64,000 bases of DNA from Flavobacterium chungbukense (GTDB lineage: Bacteria; Bacteroidota; Bacteroidia; Flavobacteriales; Flavobacteriaceae): the NCBI RefSeq assembly GCF_020805785.1, contig NZ_JAJGZV010000001.1:124001-188000 (forward strand), given 5' to 3'. A program made the position numbers and the translations under genes. Every line of letters begins with the position of its first letter. The stretch's first letter is position 1. The notes under the pieces are model-generated. The model did not search any database and was not told the origin of the DNA. It was given only the letters and a program-made list of their open reading frames with translations. Below are positions 52,299-59,104 of the stretch, in pieces.

Positions 52299-52411
52299 AA
52301 ATGGTAATTTTTTGGAATTCCTAGCTAAGATACAAATTATAGTCATTTACAACTCATCCTCGAAATTCTACAATTGGGTTATTATATATTTTTTAACGTT
52401 TAATGTTAAAA

Positions 52412-52419: not shown

Positions 52420-52441
52420 CCTCATCAAAACCAAAGATGAT

Positions 52442-54607
52442 ATGAAAACCAAATTATTTTTTACCATTAGCTTTTTATTTTTTACAGCTTTAATTTTTGC
52501 TCAAAATACAATTTCAGGAAAAGTTGTAGATCAAAAAGGAAGACCAGTTGTGGGCGCCAATATTTATATAGACGGAACTTACGATGGGGCAACAAGTTCT
52601 GAAACGGGAGAGTTTTCTTTTGAAACTACCGAAACGGGAAATAAATTTTTAGTAGTTAGCTTTCTGCTTTTCGAAACTTTTAAACAAGAAATTGATGTTG
52701 CCAATTATAAAAATCAAACTGTAAAATTAAGAGAAAATGTAAATGCGCTTGATGCTGTTGTTATTACTGCGGGAACGTTAGAATCGGGAGATAAAGCAAG
52801 AGTTTCGGTTTTAAAACCTTTAGATATTGTCACAACCGCAGGTTCAGCCGGAAATATTGTTGCTGCTTTGCAAACTTTACCAGGAACTCAAAGTGTGGGT
52901 GAAGACGGACGTTTGTTTGTTCGCGGTGGAGAAGCAAATGAAACACAGACATTCGTAGACGGAATTCGTGTAGCACAACCTTACGGAGCAACCACAAATA
53001 ACTTACCAACTCGAAGCCGATTTTCTCCTTTTTTGTTTAGCGGAATCGCATTTTCTACAGGTGGTTATTCTGCGGAATATGGCGAAGCATTATCTAGTGT
53101 ATTACTTTTAAATACGCAAGATGAAGAAGATCATGAAAAAACAGATATTGGTTTCATGACCGTTGGTCTAAGTTTAGGAAATACGCAGAAATGGGAAAAA
53201 AGTTCTTTAAGCGTTAATATGATGTATGTAAATCTAGCGCCTTATCAAGCTGTAATTCCGCAAAATGTAGATTGGAATAATCCATATCAATCGCTTGGTG
53301 GAGAAACGGTTTACAGATATAAGTTTACAAATGGAGTATTTAAATTGTATGCTTCTTTTGATTCTGAAAGATTCGATTTAAATCAGAAAAATATCAATTT
53401 TGAAAATCCGATCAGAACAGATATGAATAACAATAATTTCTATTTGAATTCTTCTTATAAAGGAAGTATCGGAACAGGATGGCAATTAACTTCTGGCGTT
53501 AGCTACGGTTACAGTAAAAACAAATTGAAATATGATATTACCGGAATTAACAATCAGGAAAATGCTGCGCAGTTAAAATTGAAATTATCAAAAAAAGTGT
53601 CAAACTATTTTAGATTGTCTTTTGGTGCAGATTATTTCATTACAAAATTCAATGAAGATATTACCGATAATGCTTCTCTTAATGTTGCTAACGGTTACGA
53701 TTCTAATATTTTTGCCTCTTATGTAGAAGGAGATGTTGCATTTTCTAAAAATTTAGCCTTAAAAGTTGGTTTAAGATATTCTAACAACAGCTTGTTGAAT
53801 GAAAATAATATTGCTCCAAGAGCTTCTTTAGGTTACAAAGTTTCAAAAAGCAGTCAATTTTCTTTCGCTTATGGAGATTTTACACAAACACCAGTTGTAG
53901 ATTATATTAAATATTCTCAGTACCATCAGTTTGAAAGTGAAAAAGCAAAACATTATATTTTGAATTATACGTTTACAAAACCTGGACAATTGCTTCGAAC
54001 AGAACTGTATTATAAAGATTATAGCAATTTAGTGCAATACGATACAAGAGATATTCAATACAATTCGGTTTTCAATAACAACGGATCGGGTTATGCAAAA
54101 GGTTTTGATTTGCTTTGGAGAGATAGTAATTTATATAAAAACTTAGAATATTGGATTTCATACTCTTATATCGATTCAGAAAGACAATATAAAAACTTTC
54201 CAAATATGGCTACTCCTAGTTTTGTTGCTAATCATAATTTATCTGTTGTAACCAAATATTTTATAACAGATTGGAAATCACAAATCGGATTTACAAATAG
54301 TTTCAGCTCAGGCCGCCCGTACAATGATCCGAATCAAACGCAATTCATGAGCGGAAAAACAAAGTCTTACAATAGTTTGAGTTTTAACTGGGCCTATTTA
54401 TTGACGACACAAAAAATCCTTTATTTCTCAGTATCCAATATTTTAGGAACACAAAATGTTTTCGGCTACGATTACGCCAGAACGCCAGACGCAAGCGGAG
54501 TGTACCAAAGACAAGCTGTAATCCCGACTGCAGATCGATTTTTCTTCGTAGGCTTCTTTTGGACAATTAGTCAGAATAAAAATGAGAATCAGTTGAAGAA
54601 TCTTTAA
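52442..54607 (+). CDS. TonB-dependent outer-membrane receptor with regulatory-type N-terminal domain
   Basis: This 721-residue protein has a signal peptide (MKTKLFFTISFLFFTALIFAQ). A carboxypeptidase-D-like domain (ISGKVVDQKGRPVVGANIYIDGTYDGATSSETGEF) follows, then the plug (AGTLESGDKARVSVLKPLDIVTTAGSAGNIVAALQTLPGTQSVGEDGRLFVRGGEANETQTFVDGI) and a barrel ending RFFFVGFFWTISQ. I used the second ATG because the -7 box is downstream of the first. No SusD partner is present, so it is not a sus-type pair. Cargo is unknown; siderophore or peptide is possible. Confidence 0.9.
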   Translation: MKTKLFFTISFLFFTALIFAQNTISGKVVDQKGRPVVGANIYIDGTYDGATSSETGEFSFETTETGNKFLVVSFLLFETFKQEIDVANYKNQTVKLRENVNALDAVVITAGTLESGDKARVSVLKPLDIVTTAGSAGNIVAALQTLPGTQSVGEDGRLFVRGGEANETQTFVDGIRVAQPYGATTNNLPTRSRFSPFLFSGIAFSTGGYSAEYGEALSSVLLLNTQDEEDHEKTDIGFMTVGLSLGNTQKWEKSSLSVNMMYVNLAPYQAVIPQNVDWNNPYQSLGGETVYRYKFTNGVFKLYASFDSERFDLNQKNINFENPIRTDMNNNNFYLNSSYKGSIGTGWQLTSGVSYGYSKNKLKYDITGINNQENAAQLKLKLSKKVSNYFRLSFGADYFITKFNEDITDNASLNVANGYDSNIFASYVEGDVAFSKNLALKVGLRYSNNSLLNENNIAPRASLGYKVSKSSQFSFAYGDFTQTPVVDYIKYSQYHQFESEKAKHYILNYTFTKPGQLLRTELYYKDYSNLVQYDTRDIQYNSVFNNNGSGYAKGFDLLWRDSNLYKNLEYWISYSYIDSERQYKNFPNMATPSFVANHNLSVVTKYFITDWKSQIGFTNSFSSGRPYNDPNQTQFMSGKTKSYNSLSFNWAYLLTTQKILYFSVSNILGTQNVFGYDYARTPDASGVYQRQAVIPTADRFFFVGFFWTISQNKNENQLKNL

Positions 54608-54612
54608 AAGAT

Positions 54613-54686
54613 TCTGAGGTTCTAAGATACTAAGGTGCTAAGAAAAAAAACTTAGAACCTTAGCCCCTCAGCACCTTAGTAACTCA
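54613..54686. repeat. octamer-period array f with inverted CTAAG and CTTAG arms
   Basis: The left arm has CTGAG/CTAAG at 54613, 54621, 54629 and 54637; the right arm has CTTAG/CTCAG at 54650, 54658, 54666, 54674 and CTCAA at 54682. Both keep an 8-bp period with three-base spacers. The arms are complementary in the cores and form a hairpin after the TonB receptor stop. Confidence 0.9.
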
Positions 54687-54782
54687 AAAAAAACAATTCA
54701 GTAACCAAAATCAACAACTCGGTATCATTTAGTTTTAAAACAATAAAAACCGACATACTTTTGAAGTATAAATTAAAAGAGA

Positions 54783-54811
54783 CAAAGAAGCAAAGCAGCA
54801 AAGGCTCAAAG
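54783..54811. repeat. octamer-period CAAAG array g
   Basis: CAAAG at 54783, 54791, 54799 and 54807 with three-base spacers AAG, CAG and GCT. Confidence 0.9.
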
Positions 54812-54842
54812 TTTTTTGAATAGCAATAATAAGAAAATAAGA

Positions 54843-54879
54843 CCTTGTCACTTTGTAACTCTGAACCTTTAAACCTTAA
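54843..54879. repeat. octamer-period CTTTG array h
   Basis: CCTTG, CTTTG, CTCTG, CTTTA and CTTAA at 54843, 54851, 54859, 54867 and 54875, period 8. It is the inverted partner of array g. Confidence 0.8.
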
Positions 54880-54916
54880 AAAAAGAGTTTTAATTATCAA
54901 TCAAAAAAAATAGAAT

Positions 54917-54945
54917 CTCAGAACCTTAGTAACTTAGAAACTTAA
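54917..54945. repeat. octamer-period CTTAG array i
   Basis: CTCAG, CTTAG, CTTAG and CTTAA at 54917, 54925, 54933 and 54941, period 8. It ends 13 nt before the next ATG. Confidence 0.8.
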
Positions 54946-54957
54946 AAAAAAGAAATC

Positions 54958-55578
54958 ATGACCAAAATTATTACAGTTATCGCATTATTTGTTTGTAGTT
55001 TATTATCTGCTCAAACACAATTTGAACAAGGAATGACAAAAGCGTTTGGACTTTGGAAAGAAGGAAAAAACACAGAAGCTTCTCAATTATTTGAAAGAAT
55101 TGCAGCTGCTGAAAAAAACAGTTATTTGCCAAATTATTATATCGCTTTAATTAATACAACAGCTGTGTTTACAGAAAAAGACAAAACAAAAATTGATTTG
55201 TTATTGACAAAAGCACAAGACGCATTAGATGTAGAATTAATAAAAGATCAAAGCAATTCAGAATTATATGTAATGCAAGCTTTAATCTACACAGGATATG
55301 TTGTTGCAGACCCAATGACAAACGGAATGAAATATTCTGGCAAAGTAATGGAAGCTTACGCAAAAGCCAAAGCGTTAGACCCAAACAACCCAAGAGCTGT
55401 TTTTGGTGAAGCAGATTATCAATTAGGAGGTGCAAAATGGACAGGGGTTGACACAAAACCTTTATGTGCTCAAGTTGCAAAATCTATTGAACTTTTTAAT
55501 ACTTTTAAACCAGCGACTCCTTTTTCTCCAAAATGGGGATTAGAAAGAGCTTTGGAAGTCCAAAAAACGTGTAAATAA
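54958..55578 (+). CDS. secreted TPR-like protein of unknown function
   Basis: This 206-residue protein has a signal peptide (MTKIITVIALFVCSLLSAQ). Helical pairs follow that look like degenerate tetratricopeptide repeats (FGLWKEGKNTEASQLFERIAAAEKNSYLPNYYIALI, SELYVMQALIYTGYVV, AYAKAKALDPNNPRAVFGEADYQLGG). It has no catalytic motif. It lies 23 nt before the LytS kinase gene and in the same direction, so it may be a periplasmic part of that operon. Confidence 0.75.
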   Translation: MTKIITVIALFVCSLLSAQTQFEQGMTKAFGLWKEGKNTEASQLFERIAAAEKNSYLPNYYIALINTTAVFTEKDKTKIDLLLTKAQDALDVELIKDQSNSELYVMQALIYTGYVVADPMTNGMKYSGKVMEAYAKAKALDPNNPRAVFGEADYQLGGAKWTGVDTKPLCAQVAKSIELFNTFKPATPFSPKWGLERALEVQKTCK

Positions 55579-55601: not shown

Positions 55602-56954
55602 ATGAAAGAAAGAACATTTACCGATCTGAAAAGTGGAACAATAGTCTGTTTCAAGATTTCGATGATCTTTGCCGTAATATTTTCAGCTTCTTTAGGAGAT
55701 GATTTAAATGTTAGAAATGTTCTTTTAACTTTCTTTATAAGCTGTCTTTATTCTTTCGGATTAGGTTTTGGAAATGGCTTCCTGAATGTGCTCTTAGACA
55801 AAAAATGGGATTGGCTGGAACAAACAAACCTTAGAGTTTATTACGGAATTCTAGTAACCGTTTTGTATACAGTTCCTGTAGTTTTAGCCATAAACTATTT
55901 CATTTTTGTGGTATTGCAGGATGTGAGCTTAGAGGTGTTTTTGGGAGCAAGAATGATATGGGTACATCTTTTTTATATTATTTTATCTTTAGGAGTTTCC
56001 ACTTTTTTACAAGCCAGAAGTTTTATGGTGAAGTGGAAAAAAGCTTCAAAAGTTGAAATAACGCAGCAAAAAATCATCGCCGGAACTGCCAGCGCCAAAT
56101 TTGAAAGTTTAAAAAATCAGATTGACCCACATTTTCTTTTTAATAGTTTGAATGTTTTAAGTTCATTGATTGAAGAAAATCCTGATAATGCGCAGCGTTT
56201 TACCACTTCTTTATCTAAAATTTACAGATATGTTTTAGAGCAGAAAGATAAAGAATTGGTTTCTGTTGAAGATGAATTGTCATTTGCTAAAACTTACATG
56301 AATCTGCTTAAAATGCGTTTCGAAAATAGTTTGTTTTACGAATTGCCAACAGAAAACATCAATCCAGATGCTAAAGTGGTTCCGCTTTCTTTACAGCTTT
56401 TACTGGAGAATACTGTAAAGCATAATATTGTAAGCGAACAAAAACCTTTGCATATTAGAATATTTATTGACGGAGATTATTTGGCTATACAAAATGATCT
56501 TCAAAAGAAAGAAGTTTTGCAAGATAGACAAGGTGTTGGATTGCAGAATATTGTAAATCGATACGGAATTATAACGGACCGAAGAGTGAAAATTGATCAA
56601 GACGAAAAGAATTTCACCGTTAGAATTCCAATTTTAACCAAACAAATTACAGTTATGGAAATGAGTGCAGAATATACAGATGAGGCAAAAGCCTATTATA
56701 GAGCCAAAAAAAGAGTTGAAGAACTAAAAGGTTTTTACGGAAATATTATTTCATACTGTTGTGTAATTCCATTTTTAGTTTTTATCAATCTAAAATTTTC
56801 ACCAGGATTTCAATGGTTTTGGTTTTCTGCTTTAGGCTGGGGATTTGGAGTTGCCATGCATGCTTTTAAAGTTTTTGGATACAGTTCAGATTGGGAAGAA
56901 CGTAAAATACGAGAAATTTTAGAGAGAGATAACAAACAAAACACTTGGAAATAA
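55602..56954 (+). CDS. LytS-family sensor histidine kinase with a C-terminal 2TM domain
   Basis: This 450-residue membrane kinase has four N-terminal hydrophobic helices (about residues 15-145). The His_kinase domain follows: QIDPHFLFNSLNVLSSLIEENPDNAQRFTTSLSKIYRYVLEQKDKELV, with the phospho-acceptor His near residue 185. The ATP site has LLLENTVKHN and GVGLQNIVNRYG. The unusual last 100 residues are a 2TM module (YRAKKRVEELKGFYGNIISY... GWGFGVAMHAFKVFGYSSDWEERKIREILE). Four 2TM genes follow, then the LytTR regulator at 58340-59104. Confidence 0.93.
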   Translation: MKERTFTDLKSGTIVCFKISMIFAVIFSASLGDDLNVRNVLLTFFISCLYSFGLGFGNGFLNVLLDKKWDWLEQTNLRVYYGILVTVLYTVPVVLAINYFIFVVLQDVSLEVFLGARMIWVHLFYIILSLGVSTFLQARSFMVKWKKASKVEITQQKIIAGTASAKFESLKNQIDPHFLFNSLNVLSSLIEENPDNAQRFTTSLSKIYRYVLEQKDKELVSVEDELSFAKTYMNLLKMRFENSLFYELPTENINPDAKVVPLSLQLLLENTVKHNIVSEQKPLHIRIFIDGDYLAIQNDLQKKEVLQDRQGVGLQNIVNRYGIITDRRVKIDQDEKNFTVRIPILTKQITVMEMSAEYTDEAKAYYRAKKRVEELKGFYGNIISYCCVIPFLVFINLKFSPGFQWFWFSALGWGFGVAMHAFKVFGYSSDWEERKIREILERDNKQNTWK

Positions 56955-57280
56955 TGACTGAAAAAGATTTTACTGAAGCGGATCGTTATTATGATGCTCA
57001 GAAAAGAGTGAAAGAATTAAGAGAGTTTTACGAGCATTTGAGTGTATACGTTTTGTCTACTCCAATTGTAATTATAGTAAATTTAATGACCTCTCCAGAG
57101 TATTTGTGGTTTATTTGGTGTGTAGTAGGCTGGGGAATGGCAATTGTTTTACATGGATTAAAAGTTTTTAGTTTTCCGCCTTTCTTTAATAAAAAATGGG
57201 AGGATAAAAAAATACAAGAATTTTTAGAAAAAGAAAATAAACGTAGACTTGAAAGTAATCATGGAAACAAATTTGAGTAA
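56954..57280 (+). CDS. small 2TM-domain membrane protein, paralogue 1
   Basis: The 108-residue protein is one 2TM unit: a charged N-terminal helix (YYDAQKRVKELREFYEHLS), two membrane helices (VLSTPIVIIVNLM and WFIWCVVGWGMAIVLHGLKVF) and a cytoplasmic tail (WEDKKIQEFLEKENKR). The ATG overlaps the kinase stop (TAATG), so translation is coupled. I rejected a TTG nine bases upstream. It may pair with the kinase's own 2TM part. Confidence 0.85.
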   Translation: MTEKDFTEADRYYDAQKRVKELREFYEHLSVYVLSTPIVIIVNLMTSPEYLWFIWCVVGWGMAIVLHGLKVFSFPPFFNKKWEDKKIQEFLEKENKRRLESNHGNKFE

Positions 57281-57590
57281 CGATCAGGAACAAACTATTT
57301 TGAAGGAACTAGCCAGCAAAAAAGTAAAACAGCTAAAGTCATTTTACAATCATTTATTTGTTTATGTAATCTCGATGATTGTATTTCTTCTGAAAGAATA
57401 TACCAATCTTCCACTTCATTTTTTTCCAATACAATACATCAATTGGGTGGTTATGATTATTTGGTCGGCTGTAATACTTGGTTCTGCTATTGATATGTTT
57501 GCATCTTATAAAATTTTTGGCACACAATGGGAACAACGTAAATTGAAAAGCATCTTAGAAAAAAAATATAAAAAACAAAAATGGGAATAA
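57261..57590 (+). CDS. small 2TM-domain membrane protein, paralogue 2 (divergent)
   Basis: The 109-residue protein starts inside the previous gene, overlapping by 20 bp, and has the same pattern: KKVKQLKSFYNHLFVYVISMIVF, a second membrane helix (WVVMIIWSAVILGSAIDMF) and FGTQWEQRKLKSILEKK. The H-G-L-K-V-F block of the other paralogues is replaced by SYKIFG, so it is the most divergent of the set. Confidence 0.8.
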   Translation: METNLSNDQEQTILKELASKKVKQLKSFYNHLFVYVISMIVFLLKEYTNLPLHFFPIQYINWVVMIIWSAVILGSAIDMFASYKIFGTQWEQRKLKSILEKKYKKQKWE

Positions 57591-57592
57591 TC

Positions 57593-57898
57593 ATGGAAAG
57601 GATTTTAAGCGAAGAGGAAAGATATATCGCGGCTAAAAAGAAAGTCGAAAATATTAAAGGATTTTATGGAAATCTAGTTTCTTACATATTAGTAAATGCC
57701 ATTTTAATCTTTATCAATTTGTATACATCACCACAATATTTATGGTTTTTCTGGCCGCTATTATGGTGGGGAGTTGGAGTTATCTTTCACGGATTGAAAG
57801 TTTTTGAAGTTTTTCCTGGAATGGGTAAAGAATGGGAGGAAAGAAAAATTCAGGAATTTATGGAGAAAGAGAAAGAAAATAAAAACAAGTGGAAATAA
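57593..57898 (+). CDS. small 2TM-domain membrane protein, paralogue 3
   Basis: The 101-residue protein is closest to the kinase's own 2TM part: AAKKKVENIKGFYGNLVSYILVN, LWFFWPLLWWGVGVIFHGLKVFEVF and WEERKIQEFMEKEK. I chose the ATG at 57593, 2 nt after the upstream stop; the ATG at 57581 adds only four residues and lies inside the upstream gene. Confidence 0.82.
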   Translation: MERILSEEERYIAAKKKVENIKGFYGNLVSYILVNAILIFINLYTSPQYLWFFWPLLWWGVGVIFHGLKVFEVFPGMGKEWEERKIQEFMEKEKENKNKWK

Positions 57899-57919
57899 TT
57901 TTTAAAAAAAAATATAGTT

Positions 57920-58300
57920 ATGGGACGTTATAGAAGAGAGATGTACGAAGACTACGCAAAACAAAATTCAGGAGAATATACCAATGACGAAAGTTACAAT
58001 GCGGCTTACAAAAAAGTAAAAAAAATTAAAGGATTTTATTCTCATTTGAAAGTGTACTTTATTGTAAATATCATTATTATTGTTTCAAGTATAACAAGAA
58101 GCAATTTTTCAAATGGGTTTGATTTTAGTGGTTTGTCTAACTGGCATAGTTATTCAACAGCATTCTTCTGGGGAATTGGTTTAGTAGCGCACGGACTTTC
58201 TGTTTTTGGTTCTAATTTGTTTTTTAGTGAAGACTGGGAACAAAAGAAAATCCAAAAATTTATGGATAAAGACGCCGCAAATAAAAATAAATGGGAGTAA
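57920..58300 (+). CDS. small 2TM-domain membrane protein, paralogue 4
   Basis: The 126-residue protein has a longer basic N-terminus (MGRYRREMYEDYAKQ), the unit AAYKKVKKIKGFYSHLKVYFIVN, a Ser/Asn-rich insert between the membrane helices (NGFDFSGLSNWHSYS), WGIGLVAHGLSVFG and WEQKKIQKFMDKDAAN. It is the last 2TM gene, 39 nt before the LytTR regulator. Confidence 0.82.
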   Translation: MGRYRREMYEDYAKQNSGEYTNDESYNAAYKKVKKIKGFYSHLKVYFIVNIIIIVSSITRSNFSNGFDFSGLSNWHSYSTAFFWGIGLVAHGLSVFGSNLFFSEDWEQKKIQKFMDKDAANKNKWE

Positions 58301-58339
58301 CTTTGACCTAATATTTTTTCAAATTTCATAGTATAGTAA

Positions 58340-59104
58340 ATGATCACATTAATTATAGAAGACGAAAAACCGGCAGCAAGATTGTTGCAGAGAAAACTTG
58401 AAAAGTTAGATGTAACCGTAGAAACGATGCTTCATTCGGTTGAAGAATCAGTTCAATGGTTTGAAAATAATCCGCATCCGGATTTGATTTTTCTGGATAT
58501 TCAGCTATCTGACGGTTTGTCTTTTGAAATTTTTGAAAAGATCGATATCAAAAGCGCTATCATCTTTACAACAGCGTATGATGAATATGCATTAAAGGCT
58601 TTTAAGCTAAACAGTATAGATTATTTACTAAAGCCAATTGATGAAGATGATTTGGAAACTGCGGTTTCTAAATATAAAACACGAATTCCGAAAACAACAG
58701 AAACTTCAAACCTGCAATTAGATTTTGAACAGATTCGTCAAATGCTTTCAAATCCTTTTGAAAAGACGTATAAAAAGAGGTTTACAGTAAAGATTGGCCA
58801 ACATCTAAAAGTCATTACAACAGAAGAAATTGAATGTTTTTTTAGTGAAAATAAAGGAACATACATTCATACATGCGATAATCGTGATTATTTGATCGAT
58901 TCGACTTTAGAAATTTTGGAGCAAGAATTAGACAAAAAGGATTTCTTTCGCGTAAGCAGAAAGTTTATTGTGCCGTTAAAAGCGATTAAAGAAATCCAGG
59001 TTTATACTAATTCTCGACTTAAAGTGATTCTTCCAACTTATAAAGAAGATGAGGTTATTGTAAGCCGAGAAAAAGTACAGGATTTTAAAGCTTGGTTGGG
59101 ATAA
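58340..59104 (+). CDS. LytTR-family DNA-binding response regulator
   Basis: The 254-residue protein has an N-terminal receiver (IEDEKPAARLLQRKL, phospho-acceptor Asp in PDLIFLDIQLSDG at about residue 54, IIFTTAYDEYALKAF, YLLKPID) and a C-terminal LytTR DNA-binding domain (about 145-250; FTVKIGQHLKVITTEEIECFFSENKGTYIHT, FFRVSRKFIVPLKAIKEI). It pairs with the LytS kinase at 55602. Targets are unknown; the 2TM genes in its own operon are obvious candidates. Confidence 0.94.
   Translation: MITLIIEDEKPAARLLQRKLEKLDVTVETMLHSVEESVQWFENNPHPDLIFLDIQLSDGLSFEIFEKIDIKSAIIFTTAYDEYALKAFKLNSIDYLLKPIDEDDLETAVSKYKTRIPKTTETSNLQLDFEQIRQMLSNPFEKTYKKRFTVKIGQHLKVITTEEIECFFSENKGTYIHTCDNRDYLIDSTLEILEQELDKKDFFRVSRKFIVPLKAIKEIQVYTNSRLKVILPTYKEDEVIVSREKVQDFKAWLG

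Follow-up and report, generated by a model that had tools for sequence, protein, structure and literature searches.

Sites of LytTR-type regulators have been described as repeats of 9-11 nt with a spacer of 11-13 nt (PMC4847170). In the LytTR regulatory systems (LRS) a membrane inhibitor is encoded together with a LytTR regulator without phospho-Asp, no kinase is present, and the 9-bp repeats are mostly 12 bp apart (PMC6193735). Here, a stretch of 64,000 nt from Flavobacterium chungbukense (assembly GCF_020805785.1, contig NZ_JAJGZV010000001.1, positions 124,001 to 188,000 of the forward strand; hereafter the window) was investigated. It contains a gene set on one strand, encoding a TonB-dependent receptor (TBDR), a secreted TPR-like protein, a LytS-type histidine kinase, four free 2TM proteins (Pfam family PF13239) and a LytTR response regulator. 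We read this locus as an autoregulated LytS/LytTR two-component system, in which the free 2TM proteins would be satellites that act on the kinase and are controlled by the regulator; the chances for and against this reading appear about evenly balanced. Gene content, conservation, the fused and free occurrence of the 2TM module, the conserved sites and a shared C-terminal tail are supported by computation. For the proposed kinase association and autoregulation, support comes from comparison with related loci.

The locus comprises the following features, with positions in the window:

52349..52378, + strand: predicted LytTR site 1, ACAACTCAT-N12-ACAATTGGG (9-12-9 direct repeat), upstream of the TBDR gene; footprint in 80 regions and pattern match
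52439..54607, + strand: TBDR; Pfam CarboxypepD_reg, Plug and beta-barrel, synteny; the in-frame ATG at 52403 is an alternative start
54693..54722, + strand: predicted LytTR site 2, ACAATTCAG-N12-ACAACTCGG, upstream of the TPR-kinase-2TM-regulator genes; matrix score 11.6 and pattern match
54958..55578, + strand: secreted TPR-like protein, 206 aa, 23 nt before the kinase gene; synteny
55602..56954, + strand: LytS-type histidine kinase, 450 aa, tail -TWK; N-terminal transmembrane (TM) region, His_kinase core and C-terminal 2TM domain
56700..56921, + strand: 2TM domain PF13239 at the kinase C-terminus (residues 367-440), Pfam 4.9e-26
56954..57280, + strand: 2TM protein a, 108 aa, tail -KFE; PF13239 1.3e-27
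57261..57590, + strand: 2TM protein b, divergent class with its own clade, 109 aa, tail -KWE; PF13239 4.7e-14
57593..57898, + strand: 2TM protein c, 101 aa (105 aa from ATG 57581), tail -KWK; PF13239 3.6e-31, AlphaFold2 model
57920..58300, + strand: 2TM protein d, regulator-adjacent class ('last copy' clade), 126 aa, tail -KWE; PF13239 1.6e-25
58340..59104, + strand: LytTR response regulator, 254 aa; Response_reg 1.7e-14, LytTR 3.4e-22

An earlier note on this DNA had described a LytS kinase with C-terminal 2TM domain, four separate 2TM proteins and a LytTR regulator, and the genes and Pfam matches agree with this description (His_kinase PF06580, 7.6e-26, for the kinase core). The five 2TM units score 52.6 to 107.5 bits against the curated cut-off of 24.8 bits for PF13239. 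A search of the whole genome (5.35 Mb, E <= 0.001) gave six matches to this family; because five of them lie inside the locus, the clustering is not a matter of chance. Three overlapping starts had been named. Two were found, with 1 nt shared by kinase and 2TM-a (56954) and 20 nt by 2TM-a and 2TM-b (57261-57280). The third (57593) was not, as 2TM-c starts from this ATG 2 nt after the stop of 2TM-b and overlaps by 10 nt only if ATG 57581 is used. The second paralogue, 2TM-b, was rightly called divergent: its identity to 2TM-c is 22% (44% for 2TM-a, 42% for 2TM-d), its Pfam score is the lowest and it falls into a clade of its own. The interval 55602-59104 given for the operon proved too short, since the TPR-like gene lies 23 nt before the kinase gene and the TBDR gene upstream of it, both being syntenic in most of the Flavobacterium loci examined. 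For the TPR-like protein only weak TPR matches below the curated Pfam cut-offs were obtained, and the signal peptide was judged by eye.

The strongest comparative evidence for an action on the kinase is that the same module occurs inside or beside the same kind of kinase. In another family of the same class (f46), PF13239 was detected in 8/61 genomes with one small 2TM gene each. In all seven readable loci (L149, L168, L202-L206) the genes directly downstream of it encode a LytS kinase that lacks the 2TM domain and a LytTR regulator; L207, where the stretch ends at a contig edge, was left out. The ends of the 2TM and kinase genes mostly overlap, a relative of the TPR gene lies in front in five of the seven loci and a TBDR relative in two of those five, and the H-box was intact in the five kinases tested. 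Within the Flavobacteriaceae, one kinase (L136) carries two C-terminal 2TM domains.

Fused and free modules were further compared in a FastTree phylogeny of 187 2TM domains from 57 representative loci (about 80 columns). A clade of 49 members (support 0.948) holds 40 of the 55 last copies and thus represents the regulator-adjacent class, and the divergent class of paralogue 2 has seven members (support 0.957). A mixed group (support 0.937) contains every one of the 58 kinase-fused domains, together with 55 of the 74 remaining non-last copies. That kinase domains stand among free ones here points to an exchange between the two forms, though not decisively.

Autoregulation was examined by means of the upstream regions. 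When 80 TBDR upstream regions were aligned, a conserved block became apparent that contains two direct repeats at a distance of 21 bp, and this 9-12-9 layout fits the LytTR site architecture as described in PMC4847170 and PMC6193735. A matrix was trained on 36 distinct sites, with 75 of the 80 regions fitted. Scanning the window, it scored the TBDR site at 56.0, the site upstream of the TPR gene at 11.6 and the next best position at -1.6. Plain alignment upstream of the TPR gene showed little conservation, site 2 appearing only by the matrix scan. Sites 1 and 2 are the only perfect matches to the pattern ACARYTSRK-N12-ACARYTSRK in the 5.35-Mb genome; as the pattern was written after both sites were known, their own match is a given, and information lies only in the lack of further matches. 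With up to one mismatch 15 matches were found, versus 2 for the pattern read backwards, and 10 of the 13 one-mismatch places lie inside mechanically called open reading frames (ORFs) of 120 aa or more. The predicted regulon in this genome is best read as self-contained, consisting of the TBDR gene and the system's own operon. The locus thereby predicts a compact regulon.

In stretches not used for training, matrix hits above 5 were detected in 8/8 loci of f46, 10/13 of f2, a family of the same order, and 25/26 of other Flavobacteriaceae genera (26/27 with the Flavobacterium locus L221, which this count excludes). Of 31 stretches not belonging to the system, 30 containing a 2TM gene and one being filler, none gave a hit. 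Per set, column-permuted matrices gave 0.0-0.6 hits on average and never more than 2, and the mirrored matrix gave 0, 0, 2, 1 and 2. The Flavobacterium loci L007-L046 overlap in species with the training loci; hence, only the other genera and families test the sites independently. Median distances of the sites were 60-65 bp before TBDR and 2TM starts, 68-99 bp before TPR genes and 160-234 bp before kinases coming first.

The position of the sites varies with the gap between the kinase and the first free 2TM gene; copy numbers, gaps and overlaps in relatives derive from mechanical ORFs and starts, so that counts at a single locus may be off by one. In other genera, a site precedes the 2TM array in 11/13 loci with a gap of 60 nt or more and in 0/12 with a shorter gap. 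In the Flavobacterium set all 39 gaps are short and no array (0/39) has a site in front. In the f2 loci L145 and L146 the gap is short, yet two 2TM genes further on have a site in front of the pair, and the matrix hits in L127 and L130 of other genera are not located before a labelled gene. Therefore, the array is either close behind the kinase, with the site upstream, or often has a site of its own.

A further feature is shared by kinases and satellites. Both mostly end in a short charged tail with penultimate Trp, which was present at position -2 in 110/129 kinases and 315/406 free copies (207/279 non-last, 108/127 last), compared with a background of 11/1180 other ORFs. Of 30 2TM proteins that are not part of kinase-fused arrays, including two from f46 (L149, L168; elsewhere counted inside the system), none had Trp at -2 and two had Phe. 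For Flavobacterium proteins with the anchor motif (63 proteins without it, over both groups, were left out), the residue at -2 is aromatic in 104/106 kinases, 196/218 non-last and 95/96 last copies. Elsewhere in the last twelve positions aromatic residues occur in 0-2%. The exceptions are -11 (13/96) and -12 (4/96) for last copies and -7 for non-last ones (17/218); tail length varies among the Flavobacterium proteins. The tail was also considered as a nucleotide signal for translation coupling. This was rejected, because neighbouring codons vary synonymously. The replacement of Trp by Phe or Tyr in 25 of the 50 non-last Flavobacterium copies without Trp also counts against it, and last copies keep the tail though the regulator starts a median of 40 nt downstream (n = 123; 8 under 15 nt). 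Since the codons around the Trp vary, the constraint appears to act on the protein.

In the proposed mechanism, the LytS kinase would have probably four N-terminal TM helices, and its ATPase end would be re-anchored in the membrane by the C-terminal 2TM domain. It would phosphorylate the LytTR regulator, which in turn would bind the 9-12-9 direct repeats before the TBDR gene and before its own TPR-kinase-2TM-regulator operon. The free 2TM proteins would most likely lie beside the kinase 2TM domain in the membrane, either as interchangeable subunits or as competitors at the same interface; mixed membrane complexes of 2TM proteins and kinase, as put forward in the earlier note, may form. As the regulator would set their dose, the 2TM proteins would constitute a feedback loop on kinase output, for which damping is thought likelier than amplification. 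In this scheme we infer the topology, the operon structure, the occupancy of the sites, the direction of the feedback and a physical contact between satellites and kinase. More tentative is the specific idea that the satellites are kinase subunits without a kinase; being copies of the kinase's membrane tail, they would mix with it via 2TM bundle and aromatic tail in a dose set by the regulator.

Structure predictions were available for two of the proteins. The AlphaFold2 model of the kinase has a mean predicted local distance difference test (pLDDT) of 76.8 and a predicted template modelling score (pTM) of 0.40, and its core matches GanS and other histidine kinases. The 2TM part consists of a long helix (357-399) followed by helices 406-425 and 428-447, with good local confidence except at the end. 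The same order of three helices was predicted for 2TM-c (pLDDT 84.1, pTM 0.59). Because the kinase domain precedes the 2TM unit, both ends of this unit would face the cytoplasm. A solved relative of the 2TM fold was found neither by sequence nor by Foldseek at E <= 0.001. The idea that conserved His residues in the 2TM bundle bind a ligand was dropped, since those positions vary and only F24 and W81 are invariant in 63 aligned proteins. Alignment A1 comprised 70 of the 71 listed kinases (L136 left out), A2 a hand-picked set of 63. Pfam gave no named sensor domain in the kinase, and regarding the ligand of the TBDR only one weak PDB match was obtained.

The earlier note had proposed a comparison of copy number among relatives, and the number indeed varies, from 0 to 7 free 2TM genes. 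From 141 kinases with 2TM tail, 129 non-redundant ones were retained, 125 of them with the regulator in the fetched stretch. The H-box and N-box of the kinase were intact in 129/129 and the phospho-Asp motif of the regulator in 125/125; the closest named relatives by kinase identity (95-97%) are Flavobacterium potami, F. notoginsengisoli and F. panacis. In the 112 loci where a TPR gene lies upstream, 1 to 7 free 2TM genes were counted in 7, 23, 32, 32, 13, 3 and 2 loci, respectively; in the 13 loci without it, 0 to 5. Of the 125 regulator-bearing loci, a set consisting mostly of Flavobacterium, 108 also have a TBDR gene upstream.

In this genus PF13239 occurs in any context in 59/61 genomes searched, at least 50/61 having a match of kinase length; the loci L007-L046 represent 40 of at least 49 other genomes with such a match. 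The domain was detected in 48/50 genomes searched in the family of Flavobacterium and in 74/196 of the order, all 74 belonging to families f1 and f2, and kinase-2TM arrays with varying copy number occur in two families of the order. In a class-wide sample, 65/346 genomes had a match at 1e-9, which outside f1 and f2 was a single one in 46/49 positives. PF13239 also extends beyond the phylum, as seen from a control match in Synechococcus elongatus.

Several other contexts of 2TM genes were observed. The sixth 2TM gene of the genome (C12:17923-18168; L005 1432-1776) lies directly before a dihydrofolate reductase-like gene and near a thymidylate synthase-like gene. Three loci of other Flavobacteriaceae encode a dihydrofolate reductase with an N-terminal 2TM domain, recognised by Pfam in L162 and from the sequence in L163 and L164; this fusion would make the enzyme membrane-bound. 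In f2 a gene for an ICMT/PEMT-like membrane methyltransferase of 189 aa stands between 2TM genes (L145 6115-6681, L146 3545-4111; Pfam on L145 only). Another family has short 2TM genes as a tandem pair (L175 2902-3468), and no kinase of the locus type was found in the 6.5 kb fetched. A second kinase-2TM/LytTR type (L014, L020, L024, L031, L037, L041) has 0-1 free 2TM genes and neither TBDR nor TPR gene; a site scoring above 5 lies upstream of its kinase in 5/6 loci. DUF2141 genes are often located near the TBDR and TPR genes of relatives, with a predicted site in front in 13/41 Flavobacterium and 9/25 other-genus loci. No DUF2141 ORF was found in positions 54608-54957 of the window. As the signal peptides of the DUF2141 protein of L027 (8349-8753) and of the TPR-like protein in the window are nearly identical, a loss of the DUF2141 gene by recombination is suggested.

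Some results speak against satellites acting on the kinase under control of the regulator. In the approximately unbiased (AU) test a single clade of all kinase-fused 2TM domains was not rejected (p 0.18). Hence, repeated exchange between fused and free forms is not proven, and the repeated conversion read from ten changes on the tree is not claimed. Site 2 scores far below site 1 (11.6 vs 56.0) with a matrix trained on TBDR sites of close relatives. Three of the 13 f2 loci and one of the 26 other-genus loci gave no matrix hit, and the long-gap loci L129 and L132 have no site before the array. Of 25 Flavobacteriaceae loci outside Flavobacterium, 15 had a labelled TPR gene and 8 an adjacent TBDR gene, so the latter is not a fixed output. 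Two of the 125 regulator-bearing loci contain no free 2TM copy, and at these the satellites are thus dispensable. Furthermore, the tail motif is weak outside Flavobacterium, with an aromatic residue among the last two in 35/52, and absent from the f46 proteins examined.

Whether the 2TM proteins tune the kinase or are its output had been left as alternatives. The comparison supports parts of both, with the module fused to the kinase or beside a kinase without 2TM domain, and with arrays behind predicted LytTR sites, shared or own. A pure output role, in which the free proteins would be effectors, e.g. membrane-protective ones, and the kinase 2TM domain only an anchor, appears unlikely to us. 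It would account for the own predicted sites of other-genus arrays (11/13 long-gap loci) and for copy numbers between 0 and 7. However, the single 2TM gene of f46 overlaps or abuts a 2TM-less kinase in 7/7 loci, and the satellites of Flavobacterium share their tail with the kinase, whose terminus an output need not resemble. An action on the response regulator itself was also considered, as the LRS operons combine a LytTR regulator, a membrane inhibitor and autoregulatory 9-bp repeats (PMC6193735), and the 2TM proteins might restrain the regulator rather than the kinase in the same manner. The regulator-adjacent copies, 40/55 of the last copies being in one clade, would suit such a role as a class of their own. 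On the other hand, the module is fused to the kinase and not to the regulator, it directly precedes the kinase in f46, and both kinase and receiver motifs are intact here while described LRS have neither; this explanation seems quite improbable.

The extra copies could also be near-neutral tandem duplications under birth and death, without distinct function. A varying copy number would be expected from this, and a copy with two in-frame stops was found in one relative (G081). Against this stand the persistence of separate copy classes and the aromatic residue at -2, which is kept in 95/96 last and 196/218 other Flavobacterium copies with anchor motif. We consider it the least probable of the explanations discussed. 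If the preferred reading, with satellites acting on the kinase, is true, the locus would exemplify a two-component system whose tuning depends on how many free copies of its own membrane module are present. On the more tentative view of the satellites as kinase subunits, subunit stoichiometry would determine the set-point of the kinase, and a change in copy number would allow species to retune it.

For PF13239 the locus provides a consistent genetic context and a testable role in kinase control. A literature search gave no paper that names PF13239 and none on a '2TM domain-containing protein' with Flavobacterium; among the matches listed, titles and abstract beginnings showed nothing on this system, and no role was seen assigned to the family. 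In the available part of PMC11237479 (PSP) '2TM' is used in other contexts, and in that of PMC5395568 (F. columnare) LytTR regulators are mentioned and counted only. A LytTR/kinase pair of F. johnsoniae, FJOH_RS09515/RS09520, was reported as mutated in a coevolution experiment (PMC10197871). It is probably a different pair, as the adjacent locus tags leave no room for 2TM genes.

Compared with the LRS (HdrRM, BrsRM), the locus likewise encodes membrane proteins together with a LytTR regulator, and direct repeats about 12 bp apart lie before the operon (54693-54722). In contrast to these systems, it has a kinase and a phosphorylatable receiver, and its membrane proteins belong to PF13239, not to DUF3021 or DUF2154. 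Since kinase and receiver are present with intact motifs, the locus is not an LRS. All five 2TM units match the Pfam 2TM family well above the cut-off. With LytS/LytTR systems such as BtsS/BtsR and YpdA/YpdB of E. coli it has in common the PF06580 core with H-box and N-box, a regulator with a phospho-Asp receiver and a LytTR domain, and paired repeats with a spacer of 11-13 nt, the latter as sites predicted from the DNA sequence. Unlike BtsS/BtsR and YpdA/YpdB, the locus has a kinase that ends in a 2TM domain, and it adds several 2TM satellites and neighbouring TPR and TBDR genes to these components.

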